NCBI GenBank assembly: GCA_937911445.1 | Contig: CALDQY010000003.1 | Coordinates: 1 to 38,523 of the forward strand | Length of the DNA stretch: 38,523 nt | Reading direction: 5' to 3' | Source: an uncultured Rhodobiaceae bacterium | GTDB taxonomy: Archaea > Thermoplasmatota > Poseidoniia > Poseidoniales > Poseidoniaceae | Shown: piece by piece, positions 6,803 through 38,481 of the stretch | How the letters are laid out: each line of letters starts with the position of its first letter | Position numbering within the stretch: position 1 is the first letter of the stretch | Notes under the pieces: model-generated | Database searches by the model: none | What the model was told of the DNA's origin: nothing | Seen by the model: the letters and a program-made list of their open reading frames with translations, nothing else | Translations under genes and position numbers: made by a program

Positions 6803-8173
6803 TCATCGGCGTTGCTTCTTCCGCTTCTCTTCAGCGATGGCCTTGAGTTCTCGAGCGGATTTTCCGCCCTGCCCCTTCTTCTTGCCACCTGCTTGCGAGA
6901 TGTCGACCTTCAATCGTCGACCGTTGAGTTCCTGTCCATTAAGGGCCTTAACGACGTCCTCGCCCTTGTCTTTCTCATCGATGAAGACAAACGCAAATCC
7001 TTTCGGTTTTCCTCCTTTATCGGTGGCAATAGCGATTTCTGTGATGGTGGCCTTGTCGCCAAAGAATGCTGTGATGGCTTTCTCGTCTGCATCGAATGGA
7101 AGGTTGCCGACGTAGAGTTTGAGCCCTTTTGCCGGACCTTTCGAACGCTTCTCCTTATTGTCTGCATCACGAACACCGATTCGGCGTCCATGAAGACGGT
7201 GACCATCAAGTTCATTGATGGCAGCATCCGCATGTGCCTTGTCTGTGTACGTCACAAATCCAAATCCTCTTGAGGCACCAGAATCATCGGTCATGACAAT
7301 GCAATCGGTCATCTCGCCATGCTTACCAAAGAGTTCTCGGAGTTTTTCAGTGTCAACCTCACGAGGCAGGCCACCGACAAAGAGACGACAACCAGGAGCA
7401 GCCTTTCGTCCACGTCCTCCTCCACCTCCTTGACCTTCAAATCGGAAGTAGGTACGTTCACGTCCATCTTCTCGAACGTCAGCAGCGATGTAGGTTGCCC
7501 GGCCGGACGATCCTTTGGCAAAGAGTTGCTCTGCGTCTTTGCCCCAACGCTTTCCAGATAGATTCAGAGTTGAAGCGCCTTGTTCGAGTTCTGCCCAGCC
7601 AGCACCGAAGTTGTCTGCGAGTGCACGGTAGCCTTCGTATGTACAACTTGGACAAGCAACGTTCCAGTCTCCATTGACATGGGCTTGCAGTGTATCACCA
7701 CACGATGGACAAATCGCGTGGAGTACGCCGCAATCGTCGCGCTCACGGAAGTCGAGCCGAACCACAGGTTCAATTTCGGTCACAACCGCTCGTGCAACAT
7801 CTCGTCGACGGACGGCATCAGCAACGGTGTGAAGGAATCGGTCGACAATTCGAGTCACGTGAAAGTGACCTTGGAGTTGATGTGGCAATACGTCGCCCTG
7901 TTTCCCTTCAACAACAAGGATTCGGGCTTCTCCCCCTTTTTCTTGCAGTTTCTCGAATTGGCAAAGAACCGTATCTCCAATTTCGATGTTGACGATGGAT
8001 TTTGATGCATCAACAATAACGTGGCCATCATCGATTCGCACGTATCCTGTCGTTGTTGCAACGATTCGGTTGTCAACTGTCGTCGTTCCTTCGCCGGCTT
8101 GATGTTCGCCAACGGTTCCAATCTCTGTTCCTGGGGTGACGAGGCTCGTCGTCATAATTTCAACTCGCTGCAC
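6803..8173 (-). CDS. Csl4-like exosome RNA-binding protein (N-domain, S1-like, zinc ribbon) fused to two RRM domains
   Basis: 456 aa ORF. N-terminus LVTPGTEIGTVGEHQAGEGTTTVDNRIVATTTGYVRID... resembles archaeal Csl4; zinc ribbon ICPSCGDTL-x15-CPSCTYEGYR; RRM1 with RNP2 LFVGGL and RNP1 RGFGFVTY; RRM2 with RNP2 LYVGNL and RNP1 KGFAFVFI; basic C-terminus. Alternative start MTTSLV at 8155. Confidence 0.88.
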   Translation of the reverse strand: MQRVEIMTTSLVTPGTEIGTVGEHQAGEGTTTVDNRIVATTTGYVRIDDGHVIVDASKSIVNIEIGDTVLCQFEKLQEKGGEARILVVEGKQGDVLPHQLQGHFHVTRIVDRFLHTVADAVRRRDVARAVVTEIEPVVRLDFRERDDCGVLHAICPSCGDTLQAHVNGDWNVACPSCTYEGYRALADNFGAGWAELEQGASTLNLSGKRWGKDAEQLFAKGSSGRATYIAADVREDGRERTYFRFEGQGGGGGRGRKAAPGCRLFVGGLPREVDTEKLRELFGKHGEMTDCIVMTDDSGASRGFGFVTYTDKAHADAAINELDGHRLHGRRIGVRDADNKEKRSKGPAKGLKLYVGNLPFDADEKAITAFFGDKATITEIAIATDKGGKPKGFAFVFIDEKDKGEDVVKALNGQELNGRRLKVDISQAGGKKKGQGGKSARELKAIAEEKRKKQRR

Positions 8174-8251: not shown

Positions 8252-8872
8252 TCAATTCTTCTTCGCAAGACGATAGCATCGAATTCGAGTAGAGGACTTG
8301 TTTTTCGTGTGATGTGCATAGGCCGCTGGTAGCCGGAAATCGTCCTGATAGATCGAATGAAGCTCATACCCGTTTTCGTGTGCGAGTGGCAACAAATGCT
8401 CAGCATCGATGCTGTGTATGAAGTGAATGAGGGGAATCTTCATCGAAAAGAGGGTCTCGAAAAATGCCCTATCCGCTCGTGGGGTTTGGACGCCCCACGG
8501 CGGATTCATGATCGCCATGTCAACAGGTTTGTCAAGTTCGATTGGATGTCCATTCACTCGACTGTTGATGACGGTACAGATGGACTCGCCTTCAACCTCT
8601 CGAACATTGTGTTGAAGTACGTCAAGGGTGGGTGCATCGCACTCGACCATGGTCACATGTTTCGCTCCTAGAAAGGCAGCACCGATTCCAAGAACACCGT
8701 TTCCGGCTCCCAAATCAAGAACGTGTTTGTCAGTAAATCCGTCACCAAGATCAATCTTGGTAAGCCAAGCAGCCGCAAGGTTTCCCTCCGTTGGGTATTG
8801 TTCAAGTTCAACGGATTGACACGGGTGAGGCTCAAGCGATGAGAGTCGCATCGCCAGATGCCGTTGACGCAT
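8252..8872 (-). CDS. METTL5-like N6-adenine rRNA methyltransferase (class I SAM-dependent)
   Basis: ORF track runs 8252..8899; internal ATG at 8872 (MRQRHLAMRL) avoids overlap with the upstream ORF. Motifs LEQYPTEGNLAAAWL, VLDLGAGNGVLGIGAAFLGAKHVTMVECD, IMNPPWG. Confidence 0.84.
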   Translation of the reverse strand: MRQRHLAMRLSSLEPHPCQSVELEQYPTEGNLAAAWLTKIDLGDGFTDKHVLDLGAGNGVLGIGAAFLGAKHVTMVECDAPTLDVLQHNVREVEGESICTVINSRVNGHPIELDKPVDMAIMNPPWGVQTPRADRAFFETLFSMKIPLIHFIHSIDAEHLLPLAHENGYELHSIYQDDFRLPAAYAHHTKNKSSTRIRCYRLAKKN

Positions 8873-8876
8873 GCAT

Positions 8877-9116
8877 TCACCAACGACGTTGCTGTCCAAA
8901 TTGCTGGTTGAATTGCTGCTGTTGTTGCATTTGCGCGTTGAATTGGGCTTGTTGCATGGCCTGTTGGTTGCTCATCATGAGTGCAATTTGACGAATCTGT
9001 TCAGCTTCCATGCGAAGGCGCTGAATCAATTGTTCACCTGGTTGCTGATTGCCACAAAACCGGCAGAATCGCATTCCATCGTTCAAAGATTGTCCGCACG
9101 TCACGCAGAATGCCAT
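8877..9116 (-). CDS. Small zinc-ribbon protein with Gln/Met-rich tail
   Basis: 79 aa ORF MAFCVTCGQSLNDGMRFCRFCGNQQPG... (two CxxC knuckles) followed by NQQAMQQAQFNAQMQQQQQFNQQFGQQRRW; tightly placed between flanking minus-strand genes. Confidence 0.75.
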   Translation of the reverse strand: MAFCVTCGQSLNDGMRFCRFCGNQQPGEQLIQRLRMEAEQIRQIALMMSNQQAMQQAQFNAQMQQQQQFNQQFGQQRRW

Positions 9117-20310: not shown

Positions 20311-21363
20311 ATGGGGCAGTTGTATCTTACAACATTCGGAGCCTCTGAATGGATTATTCTGAGTGTGTGGATTCTCGCAGTTGTGTCTCCCATTGCGTAT
20401 TCTATCCGAAACAAGACGCCGATTGCGCTGGGGATTTCCGTTGGGTTACTGCTGGGTTACATCGTCCAATACGCGTTTGTTGTTATGGCTTCGTACGGTC
20501 TTGAGTTTCGGTTCGTATGGTTTGACTTCTGGCTGATTCCTGAGCGATTGGATTCCGTTGTCTACTACCCAACCCTGTTCACAGCAGGCTTCTTGCATAG
20601 CATGAGTGATGTGACGCACGTGCTTGGTAATGTTTTGGTCATTGCTTTGGTGGGCATTCCTCTTGAACAACGCTTGGGAGCCAAACGCTTCACAGTCGTC
20701 TATGTGACAGGATTGCTCGGAGGTTCAATTGCCTGGGTCTTCTTCAACAGCGGCTCAGGAACACCATCATGGGGCGCTTCAGGAGCTGCATATGGTCTGC
20801 TCGGAGCATACCTCTCTGGCTGGCCTCGTGATGAAATTCCATTCCCTCTCATTTTGATCCGGCCTTGGCCGGTTACCATCATTGCCTTGTTCTATTTTGG
20901 ATTTGAGTTGGTACGAGCGTTCAACACGGTTGGCCTCGGTGGTTATTCCACCGTTGCCCACATGGCGCACATTGGAGGATTTGTCGCTGCTTACGCTTTG
21001 CTTCCATTGGTGGCAAGAGGCGGGCCATACCCATTGGGTATTGTCGATGGAGGGCCGAAAGGATTCGGACATTCAAGAGCTGGATTTGACCAGATCAAAT
21101 CATCCATGGTTGATGTATCTGGCATCGACGACCCATGGACAGAACTTGGACTTGACGTTCCGAAGAATCTACGCGAGCCACTTCGAAAATTGAAGGAAGC
21201 TGGAGATGAAGCGGAAACGCGAATTGCATGGATGGAGCACATTGCCGAGGCTGGCGACTGCCCTGTTTGCCTCGCCCCATTGGGCATGGTCGAACGCCGT
21301 ACAGGGCCCCAACTCCAATGTTCGAAAGAACCGAAGCACTTGTCATGGCCAAAGCATGGATAA
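20311..21363 (+). CDS. Rhomboid-family intramembrane serine protease with C-terminal Cys-rich module
   Basis: ATG at 20311 (MGQLYLTTFGASEW...). HVLGN (HxxxN), WGASGAAYGLLGAYL (GASG catalytic Ser), AHMAHIGGFVAAY (catalytic His); C-terminus GDCPVCLAPLGMVERRTGPQLQCSKEPKH. Confidence 0.9.
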   Translation: MGQLYLTTFGASEWIILSVWILAVVSPIAYSIRNKTPIALGISVGLLLGYIVQYAFVVMASYGLEFRFVWFDFWLIPERLDSVVYYPTLFTAGFLHSMSDVTHVLGNVLVIALVGIPLEQRLGAKRFTVVYVTGLLGGSIAWVFFNSGSGTPSWGASGAAYGLLGAYLSGWPRDEIPFPLILIRPWPVTIIALFYFGFELVRAFNTVGLGGYSTVAHMAHIGGFVAAYALLPLVARGGPYPLGIVDGGPKGFGHSRAGFDQIKSSMVDVSGIDDPWTELGLDVPKNLREPLRKLKEAGDEAETRIAWMEHIAEAGDCPVCLAPLGMVERRTGPQLQCSKEPKHLSWPKHG

Positions 21364-21424
21364 TCAGGGCCAATCAACACACGTTGGAGCGATACCATCA
21401 AAATATATCGATTTGTGGTTGGGT

Positions 21425-24400
21425 ATGGCGATTATGCGCGGATGGTCTCATCACTCAAATCCAAGGCAGGCGTTGTTCTTGGTTTTGCTCATGCTTTTGC
21501 TGCCTATGGCATCGCAAGTTCAGGCGATAGAAACGCTCCCTGAGACACAAGAACCAACACACGCGCCTCCAATTCTGGTCGAAGGCTTGCCACCGCTCAT
21601 GTGTGGTGAGGAGTTGTGTGACCGACCACTTAGAATGTACGACCGTCAAGGGCGAGATGCCGCTTTGGATTATGGATGGTGGCAGGCCTATGGCCCAGAC
21701 CTCGACTGGAATGGTATGGATGACCGTCTTCAGCGTGTTCTAGACGGAATGGATTCTGTATCACCAACAGCGATCATTGGTGCAGACGGGCGAAAGACTG
21801 TCGCAATCGTAGTAGATTATGCATGGCACCCCTCAGAACCAGAAATCCAATCACTCAAATCAACACTTGAAGCACATGGCTGGGTTGGTGTGGAAAATGG
21901 CGCATGGTTTGAAGTGCTCAGGAGCATTGACAGCATCGTTGTTGACAAGGTTCCGGTTTCAGCTCTGATGGACATCTATCACCTTGAAGGGGTTGTCGTC
22001 ATAGAGATGCAAAACGTCATGGCTCCAGTGAATGACGTCGCTGCAAAAGCAGCTTTAGCACGTCCATCTCTGGAGTATGGGAACACTGCAAACGAACTCG
22101 GTTACTATGGAACAGGTGTCGTCATAGCAGTTATGGATACAGGTGTTGATAACGAACACCGCTCTCTCAACGACTTTGATGATGTTGATGATGCGCCAGA
22201 TGCAGATGCTTCGACATACAGCGATCAAAAGTGGGTTGCAGGTTTTGATGCAACATCTCCCAATCCGAATCCAGATGGCTCCACAGATCCCGATGATGGT
22301 AACGGTCACGGAACACACGTTGCAGGTTCGGCACTGGGTACGGGGGATTCATCGCGTGTTCACAGAGGAACAGCACCTGGTGCTGCTTTGGTTGACATCA
22401 AAGTCCTCACAGATGGCGGAGGAACCAATTCACAAGCGAGTCTGGCAGGCATTCAGTGGATGATCAACAACAAAGATACGGACTGGGGAATCAATTCGAC
22501 GTACCGGGGTATCCAAATCGCTTCCATGTCTTATGGTTCGGTTGGCACACCGCTCAACTCTGGTGACCAAGGTGATAACGGGACAAGCGCAGAAGCCTCA
22601 CTCATCAATCAAGCGACCGCTGAAGGCATTATTTGCGTTGTAGCTATCGGTAATGACGGCAGCAACAGAGTGCCTTCTCCTGGAAGTGCTGATGGCGCAA
22701 TAACAGTTGGCTCAGTGAACGACAAGAATACGATTCTAAGAGACGATGATGAGCATTCAGATTTCTCAAATTGGGGTCCACGACTTAGTGATGGAGACGA
22801 TGACGAGTGGGATGAACTCAAGCCGGATATTACCTCTTACGGGCACAACATTGTTTCAGCGACATATGGTACATCGCTCCCAATCCCCGGTGACACAGGA
22901 CTTGCGGACGACCAATACGATTCAAAGTCGGGAACGAGCATGGCAACTCCTATTGCATCAGGAGTCGTTGCTCTGATGCTGGAAGCAGATTCCACCCTTA
23001 CGCCTCAAGAAGTCAAGGATATTCTTCGAAACAGTTCCGAACAAAGAGGAGATCCATACGACGAATCCTTGTCAGAAAGGTGGAATGATAAATACGGATT
23101 TGGAATCATTGATGCAGCATGTGCCGTCAATTCAATTGAGGGAAACCCTTGTGACAACGGGTTTGTGGTAAAAGAATCCAAGAGCGATGTCAATGTTAGT
23201 TATCCTTCAAATGGCACTTGGCTGTTGAGTGATTCATTCACTCGAATTTCTGGAGAAGTCAACATGACCGAAATAGATTATCAGCGCGTTGAGTTGTACA
23301 TCGAACAGCATTTCTACGACAGAGGGCCAAAGATGCTCATGAATTGGACTGAAGCTAACGGGTCGATGGAAAATTGGTTCCTTGATGTTGAGATTCAAGA
23401 TTCATGGGTCGATTACAGCTCAAACGAGAAATTCTTACTCCTCCAAGCCAAAGCCTCCGACGATGATGGTAATGTCTCCAACGTGGCATATCGAAAGTTT
23501 AAGGTGTCTCGTGAAAGTATTTTGATCGATACGCCAATTTCGCGAAACGCCTTATCCGGTACCGTTGAAGTCAAAGGTGAAGTCGAAGGCGTGGAGCATG
23601 AACGAATTGAGTATCGCGTGGATGATGGTGACTGGTTGTTTGGTAGTTCAATCCAGACAAACAACAATCCTGGCGATGATGGAAAATCGAGTTGGTCCTT
23701 CAATTGGGACACAACTGAAATTGATGATGGATTCAGACAACTTTCTGTCCGAATGGTCAACAACTCTGGAAAAGAATCACAAATCGCTCAGAGAAGTTAC
23801 ACCATCGATAACATAGAACCTGCCCCATCGCTTCGATTTACAGGAGATGTCGAGGTACTGAATCGAGGCATGCCTGCAGAAGAAGCGTATCAAGGAAGTT
23901 TACTCGAGCTCAAATTCGACGTCTACAATGCAGGCGATGCTGATGCCTCGGATATTTTCGTTCGATTGGTTGCCCCTGGCGATGAATCTGAAGTGTATCC
24001 TTCGCAAGGGCTCATCCCTGAACTTCCGAAAGGAGAATCGGTTCAGGTTACATTGTTTTGGTCAGCGACTGTCGCAGGATCGCATGATGTTCGAATCGAA
24101 CTTGACCCGAACAACGCACAAGGAGACCCTGATACCTCGGACAACGTGTACGTTTTGAATTATGAAATTCTACAACGACCAGATCAACCTGTACTGCGCT
24201 ATTTGCCCGGATTCGTCACCACCTTGCCCGTTGTGCCACTTGTTGATGAAGAATACAAAATCGACATACGGATTGACAACCTCGGCAAATCGGAAGCATT
24301 CTCACTCGACATCGCACTCGAGTATTGGATTCCTGAGGCTGGCTGGCAATTGATTGACGAAGAGCGTGTTGGATTTGTTCCAGGGGCTACCAGTGAATCG

Positions 24401-26275
24401 GGTTACACCATGGTCGATTTTAGACACCAATCGGAGAAGATAGGCGCAGTACTCTACCGTGCTACGCTTACTGGAGATGGTGTCGAAAGTGATTACAGCC
24501 AAACAACGTTCAGTGTCATTGTCAGTGATGTATCAACCGTTGCAGGTTCAACCACACTTTCCCTCTCGGATGGTGAATACCCGGTTGCATTCGTAGGCGT
24601 AGAATCCTCAACACTCGTGTTTACTTCTGTCGATGGAGAACTTCATGCTCGGTCTTTGAATGACAACCTTTTGCTTCTTACAGACACGCTCGTTGACGAC
24701 AACTGGGAAGGGGAGCTCGATGTTTATCTCAGAGATGACGGATTGGTACATGCTGCATGGACGAGCCGCCAACAAACTGAGCAAGGATATTTTATGACCA
24801 ACATTGCCATGACTTCTTTTTCTCCTGCAGGGCAAATGCTCCCTATTCATACGCATCTTACACCTCTAAAAATCTCCGAGGGCAAATATTGGGGACTTGA
24901 TTTGACCGAAGATGATGGGACCATGGTCTTGTCTGGATACCACCGAAATATCTCAACGGGTGGTTCTTGGAGCGATGTCACTTCCATTTTCAGTTTGCAT
25001 TCTTCCTCACCAGATGTGGGCGAGAGTTGGAGTGAACCAAAGACGCATCTTGCAAACGTAGAGATTCATCCTGATGATGGTGACAAATTGTCAACTGTCC
25101 TTGATGATGAGATTTTGCACATTCTCTTCCAACAGGAACGAGACGATGTTACGGGTGTAGAGAGAAGTGGATTGATGTATACAAAAGGTGACCTTTTGTC
25201 TGCTTCATGGTCGTACCAGTCTTCAATTGGAGATGATGCATCTTCTGCACAAATATCGATCATCAACATCGATAATCAAAAAACCATCTTCGCATCTTGG
25301 ATTGAAGGTTCTGGTCAAAATGCAGAGATTGTAACGATTGCTACACAAGGTGATTGGGATGAGGATGTACATCGTGTTCAGGCACCGGGCGCAACCATTC
25401 TCATATACACTCAACGCAATGATATGGTTGAAGTGATTTACGACGAAATCACAGTCAGAGGAAAAGTTGCTCGCTATGGGATTCTGACAATTGACAACGA
25501 GCAGCCGGTTATTGGCCTTGGTAACATTGTATCAGAGAACGGAGTTCTTGGTTACAGTATGAATAACAAGGATGGAATTCTTTTCCTTGTCTCTGAAACA
25601 GGACGATTCTCAATGCAGAAGTTCCTACTCGATGAAGAACAAGAGGCTGGGGAGTCAAAATCCTTACTTGAGCAATTGTTGGAGCCTCTACCTGGTTCGG
25701 ACGAAACGAAGGTGAGGATATTCCTTGGCCTTGTTTCAGTCCTCTTCATTTTGTTTGTTCTTGTTGTGATTTCTCTCCGATCTGGCAGAAAAGAGGATAA
25801 CATCGCTGATGCGGCCATCGTAGAGGAAGACGAAGTTGCCATCCTCGTTCAGGTTGAAGAAGATGAGCAAGAGGAAGAATTGGTTGCCACAGTCCCAATT
25901 ACTCCTCCTGTACAGGTCGAGATGGAGGAACCCACGCTCGCAGCTGAACTGGAAGCAAAGAGCATTGCTGGCGAAGGGAATGCACGATTGAATCGTCGCA
26001 TGAAGAGGAAACAAGATCGTGAGATAGCAGAGATTGTTTCCAAAGGACTGCCTCCGTTGCCAACTCCAACACCGTTACCGGAACTACCAGCTGCCGAAGC
26101 ATTACCACCTCTACCTGTAGCAGAGCCCGGAACTGGTGCGCTACCGCCATTAGCAGATTTGCCTCCTCTTCGTCGCCAGGCGGTATGCCCCTCATGTGGC
26201 GCAAATTTCCCGGTAACCGATTTGATGCGGGCTCAAGTGATGTGTCCAATCTGTTCAGAAAGATTCAACCTTTGA
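21425..26275 (+). CDS. Secreted, membrane-anchored subtilisin-like (S8) serine protease with CARDB-like repeats and C-terminal cytoplasmic zinc ribbon
   Basis: Signal peptide MAIMRGWSHHSNPRQALFLVLLMLLLPMASQVQA; catalytic motifs VIAVMDTGVDNEH, GNGHGTHVAGSALG, SGTSMATPIASGVVALML; C-terminal TM IFLGLVSVLFILFVLVVISL; Pro-rich stretch; zinc ribbon CPSCGANFPVTDLMRAQVMCPICSERF. ORF track begins at 21206. Confidence 0.92.
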   Translation: MAIMRGWSHHSNPRQALFLVLLMLLLPMASQVQAIETLPETQEPTHAPPILVEGLPPLMCGEELCDRPLRMYDRQGRDAALDYGWWQAYGPDLDWNGMDDRLQRVLDGMDSVSPTAIIGADGRKTVAIVVDYAWHPSEPEIQSLKSTLEAHGWVGVENGAWFEVLRSIDSIVVDKVPVSALMDIYHLEGVVVIEMQNVMAPVNDVAAKAALARPSLEYGNTANELGYYGTGVVIAVMDTGVDNEHRSLNDFDDVDDAPDADASTYSDQKWVAGFDATSPNPNPDGSTDPDDGNGHGTHVAGSALGTGDSSRVHRGTAPGAALVDIKVLTDGGGTNSQASLAGIQWMINNKDTDWGINSTYRGIQIASMSYGSVGTPLNSGDQGDNGTSAEASLINQATAEGIICVVAIGNDGSNRVPSPGSADGAITVGSVNDKNTILRDDDEHSDFSNWGPRLSDGDDDEWDELKPDITSYGHNIVSATYGTSLPIPGDTGLADDQYDSKSGTSMATPIASGVVALMLEADSTLTPQEVKDILRNSSEQRGDPYDESLSERWNDKYGFGIIDAACAVNSIEGNPCDNGFVVKESKSDVNVSYPSNGTWLLSDSFTRISGEVNMTEIDYQRVELYIEQHFYDRGPKMLMNWTEANGSMENWFLDVEIQDSWVDYSSNEKFLLLQAKASDDDGNVSNVAYRKFKVSRESILIDTPISRNALSGTVEVKGEVEGVEHERIEYRVDDGDWLFGSSIQTNNNPGDDGKSSWSFNWDTTEIDDGFRQLSVRMVNNSGKESQIAQRSYTIDNIEPAPSLRFTGDVEVLNRGMPAEEAYQGSLLELKFDVYNAGDADASDIFVRLVAPGDESEVYPSQGLIPELPKGESVQVTLFWSATVAGSHDVRIELDPNNAQGDPDTSDNVYVLNYEILQRPDQPVLRYLPGFVTTLPVVPLVDEEYKIDIRIDNLGKSEAFSLDIALEYWIPEAGWQLIDEERVGFVPGATSESGYTMVDFRHQSEKIGAVLYRATLTGDGVESDYSQTTFSVIVSDVSTVAGSTTLSLSDGEYPVAFVGVESSTLVFTSVDGELHARSLNDNLLLLTDTLVDDNWEGELDVYLRDDGLVHAAWTSRQQTEQGYFMTNIAMTSFSPAGQMLPIHTHLTPLKISEGKYWGLDLTEDDGTMVLSGYHRNISTGGSWSDVTSIFSLHSSSPDVGESWSEPKTHLANVEIHPDDGDKLSTVLDDEILHILFQQERDDVTGVERSGLMYTKGDLLSASWSYQSSIGDDASSAQISIINIDNQKTIFASWIEGSGQNAEIVTIATQGDWDEDVHRVQAPGATILIYTQRNDMVEVIYDEITVRGKVARYGILTIDNEQPVIGLGNIVSENGVLGYSMNNKDGILFLVSETGRFSMQKFLLDEEQEAGESKSLLEQLLEPLPGSDETKVRIFLGLVSVLFILFVLVVISLRSGRKEDNIADAAIVEEDEVAILVQVEEDEQEEELVATVPITPPVQVEMEEPTLAAELEAKSIAGEGNARLNRRMKRKQDREIAEIVSKGLPPLPTPTPLPELPAAEALPPLPVAEPGTGALPPLADLPPLRRQAVCPSCGANFPVTDLMRAQVMCPICSERFNL

Positions 26276-31326: not shown

Positions 31327-34300
31327 TCACAAATCCAAATCATCCAGTAGGTCGGAGAGATTCGTGTCCTGATTCGATGGTGGAGTCATTGAAGGTGTCG
31401 GTTGATAGGTAGGTGCAGGTGCTTGATTTGCTGCCAGATATTGCTCACCATAGTACGCCCATTGTTCCATGGTCCAACCAGCCGGCAGGCCAGTGGCTGG
31501 GAGTGGAGGGCCTTGATTCACGACTGGCTGTTCAACAAACGGTTCTGGTTGAACAGGCGCTTGTGGTGCTGGCTGCTCGTATGTGGGCAATTCCGAAGGC
31601 GCATAACTTGGTAAGGGCGTTGTATCCCATGCTTTGTTCGATGGAGTCTCGACCAAATCTGGCGGTGAACGGCGAGTGATGAGCAGGAACGATGCCAACA
31701 TGATCACCAAACCAACGAGTCCTAGAATGACGATCGACATGGTTTTAGAGACACCCAATGTATCGCTGAACTCTTCGATGAATCCTTCAGGGGGCGGTTC
31801 TGCAACATCGATGGTAAGCGTAAATGTGTCCGTCGAAAGATCGTCATCGGTTACAGTGAGGTTGATCTTCCACGTGCCAACCGGTAAATCGGTTATCGAT
31901 ACTACAGGCCCAGTTTCACCAAGGTCATTCTCGCCTCTCCACTCAAATGTCCAAACGTAGAGCATGTTCAGCAGATCTGAATCTGAGTCCGTTGTCCCAT
32001 CGGATGAGAGGTTGAGCGTATCGCCCTTCACGAGGTTGTCAAGTGATCCGTTGGCGAACGAAATCTCTGCGCCCGGCAGGACGTTCTGAACTTTGACAAC
32101 AGCCGAAATCGATGCCATGGCACCATCGTCGTCCTTCACCCATGCCGTAACGGTTCGGAACTGAGGGTTGCTGGTCTCCCATGTGTACTCAAAATGAGTC
32201 CCACTCACATCGCAGTCATTGTTCAAGGTGCCATCGAGGTCCGCATCACGTGTTCCGTCGATATCCCAACAGACTTCCAGTGAATCCTTGTCTGAAGCCG
32301 TATCATCAACAGCGACGTCAAAGACCACTTCGTCGTCTTCATCAACCGTAAGGCCTTTGTTGACAGCGTTGAGGAAATTCGCTTCTGCTGTCATGGTTGG
32401 CGGTACGTTGACAATTGTGACCTTTGCGAGCGATGTGGAAGAGGTCGCTCCGTCGTCATCAACAGCACGAACTGAGATGATGTGTTCTCCAGACGTTGGC
32501 CACGAGGTTGAAACATCGGAGGCGGAACCATCAGTGGATACGGTGAAATTATCGAGAACATCACTTAGGTTCCAGTCGATGATGAGTCCATCACGGTCGT
32601 TGAGTGTATCATCGCCTTGGGCACGAAGAATGACGGTCTGATCCTCTTGGAGTACCCAGGTTCCATTCGCATCGAATGGTGTGTTTACGCCTGCAATCCA
32701 CACGCCAATTTCGCCGATGGTTGGGGCTACATTCAGAACTTCAATCGATGAAAGCACTTCGGTTTCTTCGCCATCATCGTCGGTTGCGATGGCACGGATT
32801 GGCATCGTTCCCTCCTCAAGTGGCGAAAACGTACACGTCGGTTGCGTTAACCCTTCAAGACAGTTCAAATCTGGCCAAGAAATACTGACCTGCTGGCCCG
32901 ATGGAGATACTGTATCAATATCGCCGCTATCACTGGCATCGATGGTGATGGAGGATTCGACAGCAATTTCCGGTGGGTGGCTGAGGTTGATGTACGGTGC
33001 TCGATTCAGGATGGTGACATTGCTGATCAAAACAGTTGAGTCAAGTTCATTGTCGGTTACAATGGTTCGCAATTCCCAGTCACCGTCGTCAGACCAGTTC
33101 CAACTGATAGCACAATCTGGCGTTGTAATGACATCGACAAGACCTGGACGTGATTCAATTTCAAATCGGCACTCGACGTCTCCACCATCAGGGTCAAAGG
33201 AAGAACGGGCGTCAATGAAGACGTCCTCGAACGTGTAATTCCCAGTGTCGATAGCAATGGATGCGTTCGGTGCACGGCCGATGAAGACGTCAACAGTAGC
33301 TTGGTTGTTGCTTCGATTGGCGTCTCCGGTGATGAGCTCATCCGGATCAACGGTGAAGGTCAATGTCTGGTTGCCGATGGTGGAATCTTCAGGAACAATC
33401 CAGTCGATTACAATGCGTTGCTCACTGTACGCCTCGATGGATGGAACAGCCTGTCGGCTCGAATCGCCATCGGGCACAACAATTTCCATTTCTGTTGAAG
33501 GCGATGGCAAAACACCTCTGTTTTGGGCTGGTAGAGAGAAGGAGAGTTCGTCACCGGGCAAGGCGTTGTATCCGATCGATTTGGACAGGGTCGCAACCTC
33601 ACCATCGCGAGTTCGAGTAACGATGATTGAATCTTCTTGAGCAACCAAATCGATACCTACAACAGACAAATCGATGACAACCGTGGCAACGCCAATGATT
33701 TCCTGAACTGGATCCCAGACTATCACGCCGTTGCTGCTAAAATCATCGCTAGCGATGGTGTCATCGACGACGTTTGAAACATTGATTGTCTCTTCAATCT
33801 GTCCACTGCTGTTGGTAGTTGGATTAATCAGCGTTCCCGCCATTTCGTAACGCAACTGGAGGTTTTTGTTGACCTCTGGTATGCCGTTTGGAGCAACCGA
33901 GTAGGTTGCATAAATCTTTGATTCTGAGTCTGGTAATGTAGCAATAAATTGAGTCTCAACCTCAATGTCGACGTTCCGATCGCCCGGGTTTTTTCTTTTG
34001 TCAACGCCAAACGAGTCAACGGGTTCGTAGTCTTTCAAGAGCCAATCAATGGTGAAACCAGCAGCGTTTGAGATTCGTATCCAAGAGTTGAATCGAACAG
34101 CGGGACAGTACCAATTAAACCCAGCACTGACGCCTGTGGCGTTCCATTCGTTGACTTTGTACGAATCATCGCATCCTTCGTACTTGATGTTCTGTCCATC
34201 TTCCGTTGGAATTCCATCCTTGGTGACCTGCCAAGATGTATTTTCGGCTCCTTGAGTATCAAACGAGGTCGGGTCGAAGTAATCAGATGAACCACTTACA

Positions 34301-34911
34301 CTCGTGCCTGACATGAAGGGCATGTACCATTGGTCACCCGTCCGCATTGGGAAATCGTATTTTTCTTTTGGCGGGTCGTAATAGGTATCGAATGAGATTG
34401 TGGCGAGGTTCTGGGATAGGAAGCCAAGATTGAATGGTGCAAAGCTGACGTCTAATTCAAATTCCGAATTGATAACTGCGAGATCTCGTACTCGTACGAT
34501 GTCCTCGCCTGAATAATCGATGTCGAGCCTTCCACTGACCCCTTCAAGTGTTGCGCCACTGTTTCCTGATGAGAATTCCCCTTCGATGAGCATCTTGTAT
34601 GCAAGCGTCTGAATCCCGTCAACATTGATGAAAAAGATGTCATCAATTTCGTAAGCAGTGTCCCCGGTGAGTGTATTGAGGCTCGCAGATACGTTGGCTT
34701 GTGCCAGCAGTTGAGAGACATCGAATTGCGTTTCATAGGTCCACTTGTCACCGATGCGCCAGCTTGGGACATCGGTCGAGCTTGTTGTACCTGAGGATTG
34801 GTCAACAGATGGTAGCAGGTCAAGTGTCGTTGTGTCGTTGTTGACAAAGTGCACAGTGGATGAACCTGCCAAAAGGAACAAAACTAGGAATGTCAATACG
34901 CGGTTCGCCAT
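31327..34911 (-). CDS. Large PKD-domain surface protein (signal peptide, C-terminal TM, cytoplasmic tail), paralog A
   Basis: 1194 aa ORF; N-terminal hydrophobic signal MANRVLTFLVLFLLAGSSTVHF; PKD-like repeats (FDPDGGDVECRFE, ISVRAVDDDGATSS, WVKDDDGAMAS, NLTVTDDDLSTDTFTLTIDV); TM MSIVILGLVGLVIMLASFLLITRR; tail GPPLPATGLPAGWTMEQWAYYGEQYL. Confidence 0.92.
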   Translation of the reverse strand: MANRVLTFLVLFLLAGSSTVHFVNNDTTTLDLLPSVDQSSGTTSSTDVPSWRIGDKWTYETQFDVSQLLAQANVSASLNTLTGDTAYEIDDIFFINVDGIQTLAYKMLIEGEFSSGNSGATLEGVSGRLDIDYSGEDIVRVRDLAVINSEFELDVSFAPFNLGFLSQNLATISFDTYYDPPKEKYDFPMRTGDQWYMPFMSGTSVSGSSDYFDPTSFDTQGAENTSWQVTKDGIPTEDGQNIKYEGCDDSYKVNEWNATGVSAGFNWYCPAVRFNSWIRISNAAGFTIDWLLKDYEPVDSFGVDKRKNPGDRNVDIEVETQFIATLPDSESKIYATYSVAPNGIPEVNKNLQLRYEMAGTLINPTTNSSGQIEETINVSNVVDDTIASDDFSSNGVIVWDPVQEIIGVATVVIDLSVVGIDLVAQEDSIIVTRTRDGEVATLSKSIGYNALPGDELSFSLPAQNRGVLPSPSTEMEIVVPDGDSSRQAVPSIEAYSEQRIVIDWIVPEDSTIGNQTLTFTVDPDELITGDANRSNNQATVDVFIGRAPNASIAIDTGNYTFEDVFIDARSSFDPDGGDVECRFEIESRPGLVDVITTPDCAISWNWSDDGDWELRTIVTDNELDSTVLISNVTILNRAPYINLSHPPEIAVESSITIDASDSGDIDTVSPSGQQVSISWPDLNCLEGLTQPTCTFSPLEEGTMPIRAIATDDDGEETEVLSSIEVLNVAPTIGEIGVWIAGVNTPFDANGTWVLQEDQTVILRAQGDDTLNDRDGLIIDWNLSDVLDNFTVSTDGSASDVSTSWPTSGEHIISVRAVDDDGATSSTSLAKVTIVNVPPTMTAEANFLNAVNKGLTVDEDDEVVFDVAVDDTASDKDSLEVCWDIDGTRDADLDGTLNNDCDVSGTHFEYTWETSNPQFRTVTAWVKDDDGAMASISAVVKVQNVLPGAEISFANGSLDNLVKGDTLNLSSDGTTDSDSDLLNMLYVWTFEWRGENDLGETGPVVSITDLPVGTWKINLTVTDDDLSTDTFTLTIDVAEPPPEGFIEEFSDTLGVSKTMSIVILGLVGLVIMLASFLLITRRSPPDLVETPSNKAWDTTPLPSYAPSELPTYEQPAPQAPVQPEPFVEQPVVNQGPPLPATGLPAGWTMEQWAYYGEQYLAANQAPAPTYQPTPSMTPPSNQDTNLSDLLDDLDL

Positions 34912-34935
34912 GTGTGAATGTCTGCTTTCTCGTAC

Positions 34936-37900
34936 TTAGGAATTGTCAACCTGCGAGTCGAGCCATTGTTGACCATAGTGCTCCCACTGCTCCATCGTCC
35001 ACCCCTCGGGCAATCCGCCTTCTGGAAGAGGGGGTCCAGTTGTAGGCGCAGGGGCTACGTTGACTGAATCAAAGGCTCGTTCAATAGGTGGATCTTGTGG
35101 TCGATTGCGACGTGCTGAGATTTCATGCGGCATCAGGCCGACTTCCTCATCGCTGAAAATTGCGTTCTGCTGCTGGTCAAGCCGATCCATGGCTCGTTGT
35201 TGTCTGCCTGAACGTCGACGTCGGGTCATCATGCCGAGGACAAGGAGCATGAACGCAAGCAATGAAAGTTGAGCAACTGGATTGGCTTCATCGCCGACGA
35301 GGGCAGCGCCTAATTCTTCAACGATTGTACGTTCTGGGGCACCGATCTCAACATTGATGACTCGAGTTCCGGGTCGTTCCGGATTCTCATCCCAGGCAAT
35401 GACTCGGATTGTGTAAGATCCTTCACGGGTAAACACATGTTCGATTTGTTTACCGATTTTGTCAGCATCGTTGTCTTTGACTCCATCACCATTGCTGTCA
35501 ACAGACGTGTCGAGATCCCAAACGACCGTGATTTGGTCGAGATCATTGATGGAGTCAATCGTTCCAGTTGCATCCAAAAGACATGCTTCGAGGGCGTTGC
35601 AGACAATGTCTTTGGTTCGGACGATTGGTGGGATGTTGAGGACTTCAATGGAGAGAATCTCACTGACACGCACGCCGTCGTCGTCGGTTACGTGATAGAT
35701 GACCGTGTGCGTCCCGCTTGTGTTCCAATGCCAGACCAGCTCATCGCCAATCACATCGCAGTCATCATCAGCACCGCCGATATCGTTGGAATCGAGACCG
35801 GGATCGACATCCCAGCAACGAATCAACGTGTCGTAATCGGAGGGAGTATCGGTAGCATTGCCGACCAATCGAACTTCTTCTCCTTCTGCGAGGGGAAGAA
35901 CTTGCTCCAGTGGCTGAACAACTGGTGGGACGTTCGCAACACTTACCCATCGCTCGTATGTACCGCTGCTGGCCCCTTCAGAGTCGCTTACCTCGAGGCG
36001 CATGCGGTGGAGCCCTGATGTCTCCCACATCATCTCAAATTCAGAAACTCGCCCATCGAAGGTTTTGATGAGATTTGGCTGCGCATCATCTGGCCACCAT
36101 CGGTGGGTTAAGCCATCTAAATCATCGACTGAATCGAGGGCTTGGCCACGGAGATTGACCATTTGGTCCTCCTGAACATGCCAAGTTTGCTGGACATCAA
36201 GCGGTAGGGGACCACTCTCATTGGTCATGGTGACGGACAGCCCGTGGGGGTTGATGTTGGTGAATCGGATATCGATGCTGGCCATGGTCATGGCACTATC
36301 GTCGTCGACGCCAACGGCTTGGAATGTATGCCATCCTTCAGTTGGTGCAGTCGTTGTACAAACTCGCGTGTAGTACCCTTCTTCGCAGATTGCATTTAGC
36401 CAGTACACGTCCACAATCCCTGGAAACGGATCTTCAGAATCTGTATCGTTTGCATAAGCATAGAGTGTAACGGGATGTTCAACTTTGACCTCGTTACGAG
36501 CGCTGATGACCTCGATGTTTGGCGCCCGATTCAAAATGACAACATCAAGAATGCCTTCGACTTGGTCTTGTTCTTCGTCGGTAATGGTCACCTCGACAGG
36601 GTATTCACCATCGTTTGTCCATGTCCAGTTCAGCATGCAATCCATGGATTCAACTCGCGTCCACGCAGCCGAGCGAGTGCCATCGTACCAAGGAACATTA
36701 AACAGACAGGATACATTACCACCGTCTTCATCAAAACTACCTGAGGCATTGATCACCGTCTCGACGTTTGTGTAGACTTCGATGGGCTCGAGGACTGCTG
36801 TCGGTAGACGTCCAATGAACAATTCAATTTCACCGAGGTCGTTATCGGCATCCGCATCTGCAGTATTGACTTGCAGAGGATCGGATTCCCATCGAATTGG
36901 CAAGGTTCCAATCGCTGCATCAGCGGGTACTGTCCAAGTGAAATTGACCTTGTGAGATTCGTATGTGGCGAGCGGTGGTAATCCGAGGTCAAAGATGGAA
37001 CCATCTGGATGATAAATGCGCAAATCTGTTGCTGTGGATGTTGTGATGCCTTTGTTGACAACAGCGACTTCGATGGTTAAGTCATCACCGGGAAGGACAT
37101 TGTAACCGGACAGTGAACTGACAGTGCTTACAACGCCGCTCCTGTTTCGAATGATGACTGCTCGTTCTTCGTCTGCAATCAAGTCGAGGCCAACAAGATA
37201 CTCATCGAGCGTAATGGTGGCTGCACCAACGTAACTTCCAGATTTCGCCATAATGCCATGGCTGGACCAGTCCGTGTTCGTTGCAGAATAGTCAATGCTG
37301 CTACCTGAATCAATCGTTGTGCTTGCTGAACCGTTTGAAGCGGTGTAGACAGTGGTTGAGGCACCATCGTATGCGACCTCAACTCCAACGCCATCAATGG
37401 TCCCATAACACGATGGGCTGAGGTGAACCCATACTTCGAGCGGTGAATCAAGTGCTGTGAGAGAACGCTCAGGAGCGACATCGACACATGTCGGCCGAGT
37501 GCCTGGATCACTGTTGCTTTCAACGCCTGTGGCTCCAACAGGCATGTACTGTTTCAAGCGGAAATCAATGGTCAGGCCAACGTCTTCCTCGGCATGTCGC
37601 CATGCGTAATTGTTGACCGCTGGGCAGTACCATCTGTAACCCGTCGAGACACCATCTGAGTTCCACGATGTCAGCTCATACGATGCATCGCATCCACTGT
37701 AAGCGATTCCAGCTCCGATGGCGTTTCGAGGTTGTCCTACATCGGTGACTTCCCATGTTGTTGTGTTGGTATCTGTTTCTGGTGGCGGGAACGGTGTGAT
37801 GTAATCGCTTTGACCAGACCATTGAGAGGATGCAGTTGTCAGTGAAGTCCACCGTTCTCCATAGCGGAGTGGGAAATCGTATACCTCCGTAGCAGGGCTG

Positions 37901-38436
37901 TATTCGTTCGTAATCGTGATATCACCAAGGATTTGCGTGAGCGAACCGATTCCGTATGGAATGAACTTGATGTACAGATCGAGATCGTTCTTCACAGTCG
38001 CAAAATCGCTCACTCGTAGGTATTCGGTTTGTGTGAATTGGATTTCAGCGTTTCCTGTGAACCCTTCAAGTTCAACACCACTTTTGTCGAAATCTGCAGA
38101 CATCCGCAATTTGTAAACCCATTCGGTTCCATTGTCGAATTGAAGTTCGAGAATATCTACGACTTCAGCAGTCGCATCGCCTCGAATCTCACCCACGTTC
38201 GCTGAAACGCCCGTATCTGTAATGAGGATGGAAGGATCAAACGTCCCTGAGTAAATCCACTTGTCACCGACTCTCCATGATGGTAGGTCGGTCACACCAG
38301 GGTCGGACCCACTTCGCTGGACGACTTGCTCGTTGGAAGGCAGAAGGTTGTGTTCAACCAATGGGATTTGACTGAACCCAATCATGCATGCGAGAACGAG
38401 CAGGGTCAAGACACGTGACTTGAACACTCCGCCCAT
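34936..38436 (-). CDS. Large PKD-domain surface protein, paralog B
   Basis: ORF track 34936..38460; start MGGVFKSRVLTLLVLACMIGFS at 38436 preferred. N-terminal region SWRVGDKWIYSGTFDPS...GVELEGFTGNAEIQFT...YDFPLRYGERW...SGQSDYITP aligns to paralog A; PKD-like repeats; TM AQLSLLAFMLLVLGMMTRRRR; tail GPPLPEGGLPEGWTMEQWEHYGQQWL. Confidence 0.92.
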   Translation of the reverse strand: MGGVFKSRVLTLLVLACMIGFSQIPLVEHNLLPSNEQVVQRSGSDPGVTDLPSWRVGDKWIYSGTFDPSILITDTGVSANVGEIRGDATAEVVDILELQFDNGTEWVYKLRMSADFDKSGVELEGFTGNAEIQFTQTEYLRVSDFATVKNDLDLYIKFIPYGIGSLTQILGDITITNEYSPATEVYDFPLRYGERWTSLTTASSQWSGQSDYITPFPPPETDTNTTTWEVTDVGQPRNAIGAGIAYSGCDASYELTSWNSDGVSTGYRWYCPAVNNYAWRHAEEDVGLTIDFRLKQYMPVGATGVESNSDPGTRPTCVDVAPERSLTALDSPLEVWVHLSPSCYGTIDGVGVEVAYDGASTTVYTASNGSASTTIDSGSSIDYSATNTDWSSHGIMAKSGSYVGAATITLDEYLVGLDLIADEERAVIIRNRSGVVSTVSSLSGYNVLPGDDLTIEVAVVNKGITTSTATDLRIYHPDGSIFDLGLPPLATYESHKVNFTWTVPADAAIGTLPIRWESDPLQVNTADADADNDLGEIELFIGRLPTAVLEPIEVYTNVETVINASGSFDEDGGNVSCLFNVPWYDGTRSAAWTRVESMDCMLNWTWTNDGEYPVEVTITDEEQDQVEGILDVVILNRAPNIEVISARNEVKVEHPVTLYAYANDTDSEDPFPGIVDVYWLNAICEEGYYTRVCTTTAPTEGWHTFQAVGVDDDSAMTMASIDIRFTNINPHGLSVTMTNESGPLPLDVQQTWHVQEDQMVNLRGQALDSVDDLDGLTHRWWPDDAQPNLIKTFDGRVSEFEMMWETSGLHRMRLEVSDSEGASSGTYERWVSVANVPPVVQPLEQVLPLAEGEEVRLVGNATDTPSDYDTLIRCWDVDPGLDSNDIGGADDDCDVIGDELVWHWNTSGTHTVIYHVTDDDGVRVSEILSIEVLNIPPIVRTKDIVCNALEACLLDATGTIDSINDLDQITVVWDLDTSVDSNGDGVKDNDADKIGKQIEHVFTREGSYTIRVIAWDENPERPGTRVINVEIGAPERTIVEELGAALVGDEANPVAQLSLLAFMLLVLGMMTRRRRSGRQQRAMDRLDQQQNAIFSDEEVGLMPHEISARRNRPQDPPIERAFDSVNVAPAPTTGPPLPEGGLPEGWTMEQWEHYGQQWLDSQVDNS

Positions 38437-38481
38437 GCATATGCTTAGATGTTCTTGCACATCAAAGGTGCGACGATGGCC

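Follow-up and report, generated by a model that had tools for sequence, protein, structure and literature searches.

The window analysed here, a stretch of 38,523 nucleotides from an 87.5% complete genome of Poseidoniaceae, a family of marine archaea, carries on its minus strand a reading frame in which the exosome cap protein Csl4 is followed by a connector, two RNA recognition motifs (RRMs) and a basic tail (Table 1). The preliminary description had drawn the frame with exactly these limits without assigning a strand. The probable start is the ATG at 8155 (codon 7), preferred because it is conserved in relatives and the codons upstream of it are not; it gives a 450 aa product. A frameshift or misassembly joining two genes, the danger named in that description, is excluded: the frame is intact, the same full-length frame is present in 20 contig records, mostly complete, and the fused frame recurs in nearly all genomes of the order that were searched. 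The fusion is thus neither a chance event nor a join of two genes. No RNA structure was found near the start codon, and no phage families were found.

The upstream methyltransferase is found next to Csl4, whether plain or fused, at nearly all of the phylum's representative loci, and because this neighbor is kept with both forms the locus is taken to be the ancestral csl4 locus. Elsewhere the window encodes a probably secreted subtilase (Peptidase_S8) of 1693 codons with CARDB and Ig-like domains (21194-26272, plus strand), and two adjacent giant frames of 1202 and 1181 codons (31330-34935 and 34939-38481, minus strand). This pair has PKD and CARDB domains and probably encodes surface proteins arranged in tandem.

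Table 1. Positions, strand and basis of assignment of the Csl4-RRM features and neighboring genes
Feature	Position	Strand	Basis or remark
Csl4-RRM-RRM gene	6803..8173	minus	456 codons from GTG at 8173; stop 6805-6803
Csl4 part, residues 11-189	7607..8143	minus	N-terminal domain, S1-like center and zinc ribbon; NF034126, PDB 2ba1, hhalign
ECR1_N, residues 11-48	8030..8143	minus	PF14382, 29.6 bits, cutoff 27
Zinc-ribbon cysteines CxxC...CxxC (residues 155, 158, 174, 177)	7643..7711	minus	sequence
Connector (LN..GKRW..AE..F......ADxRxDG)	7424..7615	minus	alignment; common to the order, absent from plain Csl4
Gly/Arg-rich linker GQGGGGGRGRK	7400..7435	minus	sequence
RRM1, residues 264-332	7178..7384	minus	PF00076, 78.5 bits; RNP2 LFVGGL, RNP1 RGFGFVTY
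RRM2, residues 353-422	6908..7117	minus	PF00076, 57.9 bits; RNP2 LYVGNL, RNP1 KGFAFVFI
Basic C-terminal tail (GKSARELKAIAEEKRKKQRR)	6806..6904	minus	sequence; character kept in relatives
MTS/PrmA-like methyltransferase, upstream of Csl4	8252..8899	minus	Pfam MTS; synteny
Radical SAM protein with C-terminal helix-hairpin-helix	4969-6726	minus	downstream Csl4 neighbor, conserved across most of the order

The Csl4 half and the exosome genes

Residues ~1-185 had been read as an archaeal Csl4, and this reading holds at the level of sequence profiles. The NCBIfam Csl4 model NF034126.3 matches residues 11-189 at 97 bits (cutoff 90), spanning model positions 2-178 of 180; A. fulgidus Csl4 (PDB 2ba1) matches query residues 5-186 with E=1.6e-10; and the Csl4 halves of Poseidoniales align with the plain Csl4 proteins of the same phylum in hhalign over 184 columns (E 5.7e-53), with a profile-profile probability of 100%. 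Lack of a Csl4 match in the N-terminal half, which the preliminary description would have taken as a refutation, was thus not observed. The assignment rests on such profiles because AlphaFold had only 15-16 close sequences to work from, and its pLDDT for this half is mostly <50. The order of N-terminal domain, putative S1-like center and zinc ribbon is that of the Csl4 proteins of S. solfataricus and A. fulgidus. The central S1-like region is spanned by the whole-length Csl4 model, with no separate Pfam S1 match and a poor AF2 model. The zinc ribbon reads CPSC...CPSC, just as had been described, and its cysteines are kept in nearly all Poseidoniales checked; the Csl4-RRM of genus g16 (L145, G102) lacks two of the four.

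The fused protein is the only Csl4 found in the 87.5% complete genome. A second match is weak and proves to be Rrp4 within the exosome cluster, and no second, conventional Csl4, the existence of which had been raised as a question, was found in the genome. The cluster (G000:C190) has the order psmA-SBDS-Rrp4-Rrp41-Rrp42-L37Ae; Rrp41 scores over its cutoff, and Rrp42 and Rrp4 are clear matches although below their equivalog cutoffs. Csl4-RRM thus resembles other archaeal Csl4 proteins in being a single-copy gene alongside an Rrp4-Rrp41-Rrp42 operon. A bacterial-type RNase PH (TIGR01966, 236 bits, cutoff 141.5; G000:C13, L175:1456-2280) is encoded besides Rrp41 and Rrp42; it is unexpected in an archaeon and was possibly acquired from bacteria.

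The RRM half and its distribution in the phylum

Known archaeal Csl4 proteins stop after the zinc ribbon, at about 180-190 aa, whereas Csl4-RRM continues for about 260 more residues that include the RRMs. The spacer of ~75 aa with a Gly/Arg stretch and the two RRMs with RNP1 and RNP2 motifs, noted at the outset, are all present. The spacer corresponds to a connector of 60-75 aa, 84-95% identical within the genus, together with the Gly/Arg-rich linker. The protein has two RRM_1 matches, which total 128.7 bits (cutoff 20.7), and both motif pairs are intact, RNP1 reading in context SRGFGFVTY in RRM1 and PKGFAFVFI in RRM2. Both RRMs are confident folds (AF2 pLDDT mostly 63-88 for RRM1 and mostly 73-91 for RRM2), and the RNP aromatics on which RNA stacking depends are retained in essentially every RRM copy aligned. 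Within the genus dN is much smaller than dS for the Csl4 part, the connector and both RRMs; for RRM1 the values are 0.02-0.14 against 0.3-2.9, where several dS are saturated and the direction alone counts. Both RRMs are under purifying selection.

RRMs are common in eukaryotes, and those of Csl4-RRM had also been called eukaryote-like, a label that holds for the fold only. Foldseek places HuD, Sxl and hnRNPA2B1 as the best fold matches of the RRM part, at probability 1.00, but the best-scoring curated family is the prokaryotic RNA-binding regulator NF058537. Small proteins of this Rbp type, which occur in bacteria and some Thermoplasmatota, share RRM_1 and the same RNP motifs; unlike Csl4-RRM they carry a single RRM in about 85-130 aa and are unattached to an exosome subunit.

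The search for Csl4 covered 40 relatives, 195 class genomes and 393 genomes of the phylum Thermoplasmatota. The architecture, which the preliminary description proposed to look for in related genomes, occurs throughout the order Poseidoniales, a group of abundant archaea of the sea, in both of its families, and Csl4 is plain in the rest of the phylum. Csl4 frames of Poseidoniales are ~390-600 aa long, the exceptions being due to contig ends or ambiguous bases (e.g. G114, G144); those of f3, the class's other order, are 185-235 aa, with one of 294, and those from the rest of the phylum are mostly 185-265 aa. Those long frames outside Poseidoniales that were checked (G230, G349, G420, G238) are GC-rich upstream read-through with Csl4 at the C-terminus and no RRM. 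Several genomes of family f11 (G228, G236, G242, G251, G268, G271, G274) yielded no Csl4 at E 1e-8; DnaG is well conserved in this family, and several of its genomes have free-standing RRM proteins.

Within Poseidoniales the fusion exists in two versions. All ten Poseidoniaceae genera checked have Csl4-connector-RRM-RRM-tail, and all eleven genera checked of the sister family, presumably Thalassarchaeaceae, have Csl4-connector-treble-clef zinc finger-single RRM-tail. The finger, which is PF23477 wherever Pfam was run (e.g. L152, L154, L158), is placed between connector and RRM, where Poseidoniaceae have RRM1; the connector is common to both families. No description of a Csl4-RRM fusion was found in the open-access literature, the scope of a search that lay outside subscription papers and domain-architecture databases, so that a fusion already well described across archaea, the other objection anticipated, was not encountered there; automatic domain databases probably list the architecture.

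The fused RRMs are essentially the only ones of these genomes. When PF00076 was run over the 393 phylum genomes, the genome of the window yielded only its two Csl4-fused RRMs. Exactly two were found in 70 of the 71 Poseidoniaceae genomes with matches (G102 has three; G145 has none), and exactly one in 53/54 genomes with matches of the sister family (G035 has an additional one, located on a contig that bears a partial second Csl4; G031 has none). Among the matches listed, all Poseidoniales RRMs lie in Csl4-length frames, the weaker RRM2 matches having been assigned to Csl4 frames only in representative loci. The f3 order has one RRM in each of 8/8 genomes, a free-standing protein of ~85-105 aa in the five examined, and any RRM at all occurs in 23/258 of the other phylum genomes.

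In a 72-column tree RRM1 and the sister-family RRM form one supported clade (99/97), each being monophyletic within the tree (97/89 and 96/85); one RRM2 (G168) falls inside this clade, and the other RRM2 sequences have no resolved position. Since RRM1 and the sister-family RRM group together, the tree favors a single ancestral Csl4-RRM fusion in Poseidoniales. A single origin of every fused RRM is not rejected by AU tests (p=0.54). The tests marginally reject an origin of RRM2 by duplication solely within Poseidoniaceae (0.049), R2+F3 (0.041) and R1+F2+F3 (0.033). The free-standing f3 RRM as the source of the fused ones finds no support, the 72-column tree being too short.

A putative RNA tether on the exosome cap

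Csl4-RRM is best read, with a probability of about 0.7, as an exosome cap subunit that carries an RNA tether in cis; it would assemble into the exosome, bind RNA and recruit it. The C-terminus of Csl4 would have gained the conserved connector and an RRM in the Poseidoniales ancestor, with Poseidoniaceae now carrying a second. Csl4-RRM would dock on the Rrp41/Rrp42 ring by its N-terminal domain. The RRMs, suspended from the top of the cap by the Gly/Arg-rich linker, would capture single-stranded RNA and keep it close to the channel entrance. Such a tether would raise the affinity for RNAs that are degraded or tailed, and would probably bias the choice of these RNAs. Because the fused RRMs appear to be the only RRMs in Poseidoniales genomes, the exosome probably carries its own RNA-catching arm. 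As to the interpretation first offered, its reading of Csl4, spacer and two RRMs stands, and membership in the exosome is supported by the sole Csl4 and the Rrp4-Rrp41-Rrp42 operon; the sequence-selective arm that it also envisaged is a conjecture.

RRM-containing adaptors that deliver RNA to the exosome are known from eukaryotes, e.g. RBM7 in NEXT; however, NEXT is a separate adaptor complex with a helicase, whereas in Poseidoniales the RRMs are built into the cap subunit. An archaeal parallel is artificial. Hou et al. extended the C-terminus of S. solfataricus Csl4 by the RNA-binding N-terminal domain (NTD) of DnaG, the site being chosen because the Csl4 N-terminal domain is the ring anchor; the chimeric Csl4 gained poly(A) binding, and the exosome containing it degraded poly(A) and A-rich RNA faster in vitro (PMC4227792). 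Csl4-RRM likewise has an RNA-binding domain on the Csl4 C-terminus, but it is a natural fusion with RRMs in place of the poly(A)-preferring DnaG domain of the laboratory construct. DnaG itself, as an archaeal exosome subunit, also adds RNA binding at the cap through Csl4. It is a separate protein (NTD-TOPRIM-CTD) with no RRM.

Some points count against a tether. The Csl4 half has no confident AlphaFold model, its zinc ribbon is partly lost in g16, an RRM may bind protein instead, and DnaG, far from being lost, is present in the genome of the window and kept in Poseidoniales, which gives the cap another RNA-binding subunit in any case. It might be that DnaG of this order has come off Csl4 and that the RRM arm recruits RNA in its stead. 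In S. solfataricus the C-terminal domain (CTD) of DnaG is needed to bind the Csl4 exosome (PMC4227792), tight DnaG binding needs Csl4, and Csl4 has no poly(A) preference of its own, this being supplied by Rrp4 and DnaG (PMC7667871, PMC4227792). In all 15/15 aligned Poseidoniales DnaG sequences the FDG motif of the CTD is altered (FNG, ING, FAG and others), whereas 14/15 other phylum members keep it, as do both f3 sequences in the form MDG; the bit scores of CTD fragments are about 17-28 in this order but about 46-74 outside it. The altered motif may point to a DnaG surface that has changed where it meets the fused Csl4. The alteration is suggestive only, however, because the whole of DnaG is divergent in Poseidoniales, and its CTD/NTD identity ratio relative to outsiders (0.49) equals that of f3 (0.47), where Csl4 is plain. 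Moreover, family f11, several genomes of which yielded no Csl4, keeps FDG, and the change represents one lineage event that allows no statistics; replacement of DnaG is thus considered unlikely.

A reading with appreciable weight, although still short of even odds, is that the RRM half serves as an unspecific grip on RNA or as a cold-shock-type RNA chaperone, in the manner of small bacterial or cyanobacterial RRM proteins, and lends general affinity with no choice of target. The match to the regulator NF058537, the free-standing RRM proteins of about 85-130 aa elsewhere in the phylum, and the basic tail and Gly/Arg linker are all in keeping with this; but tandem RRMs with intact RNPs commonly show some base preference, and HuD, Sxl and hnRNPA2B1, which the pair resembles in fold only, are sequence-preferring tandem RRMs. 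RRMs can also bind protein, and these might serve as interfaces that bring a partner (helicase, ribosome or DnaG) to the exosome. This seems improbable in view of the RNA-stacking aromatics retained in essentially all aligned copies. Equally little credence is given to the idea that Csl4-RRM has left the exosome and acts as an RNA-binding protein in its own right, the cap being formed by Rrp4 alone. The Csl4 half is indeed divergent, scoring 97 bits where other members of the phylum reach about 170-205, but it keeps the zinc ribbon and the N-terminal domain (ECR1_N) that anchors Csl4 and Rrp4 to the Rrp41/42 ring (PMC4227792), and the gene is the sole Csl4 found and lies in ancestral synteny.

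The in-cis tether could be part of a larger change in which the order rebuilt its exosome receptor: an RRM would have been acquired and fused to Csl4, leaving essentially the sole RRMs of these genomes there, and the docking surface of DnaG would have changed. The outcome would be an in-cis, sequence-selective RNA receptor of a kind perhaps otherwise known only as separate eukaryotic adaptors; this extension is speculative and regarded as doubtful. The choice of RNA by the archaeal exosome is poorly understood, and here a mutable, well-understood RNA-binding module sits on the cap, in what is essentially the only RRM protein of this marine group. The module comes in two versions, RRM-RRM and zinc finger-RRM. 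Placed on the cap in this way, it makes substrate choice testable by point mutation, and the natural protein has its parallel in the published artificial fusion by which the preference of an exosome was altered.
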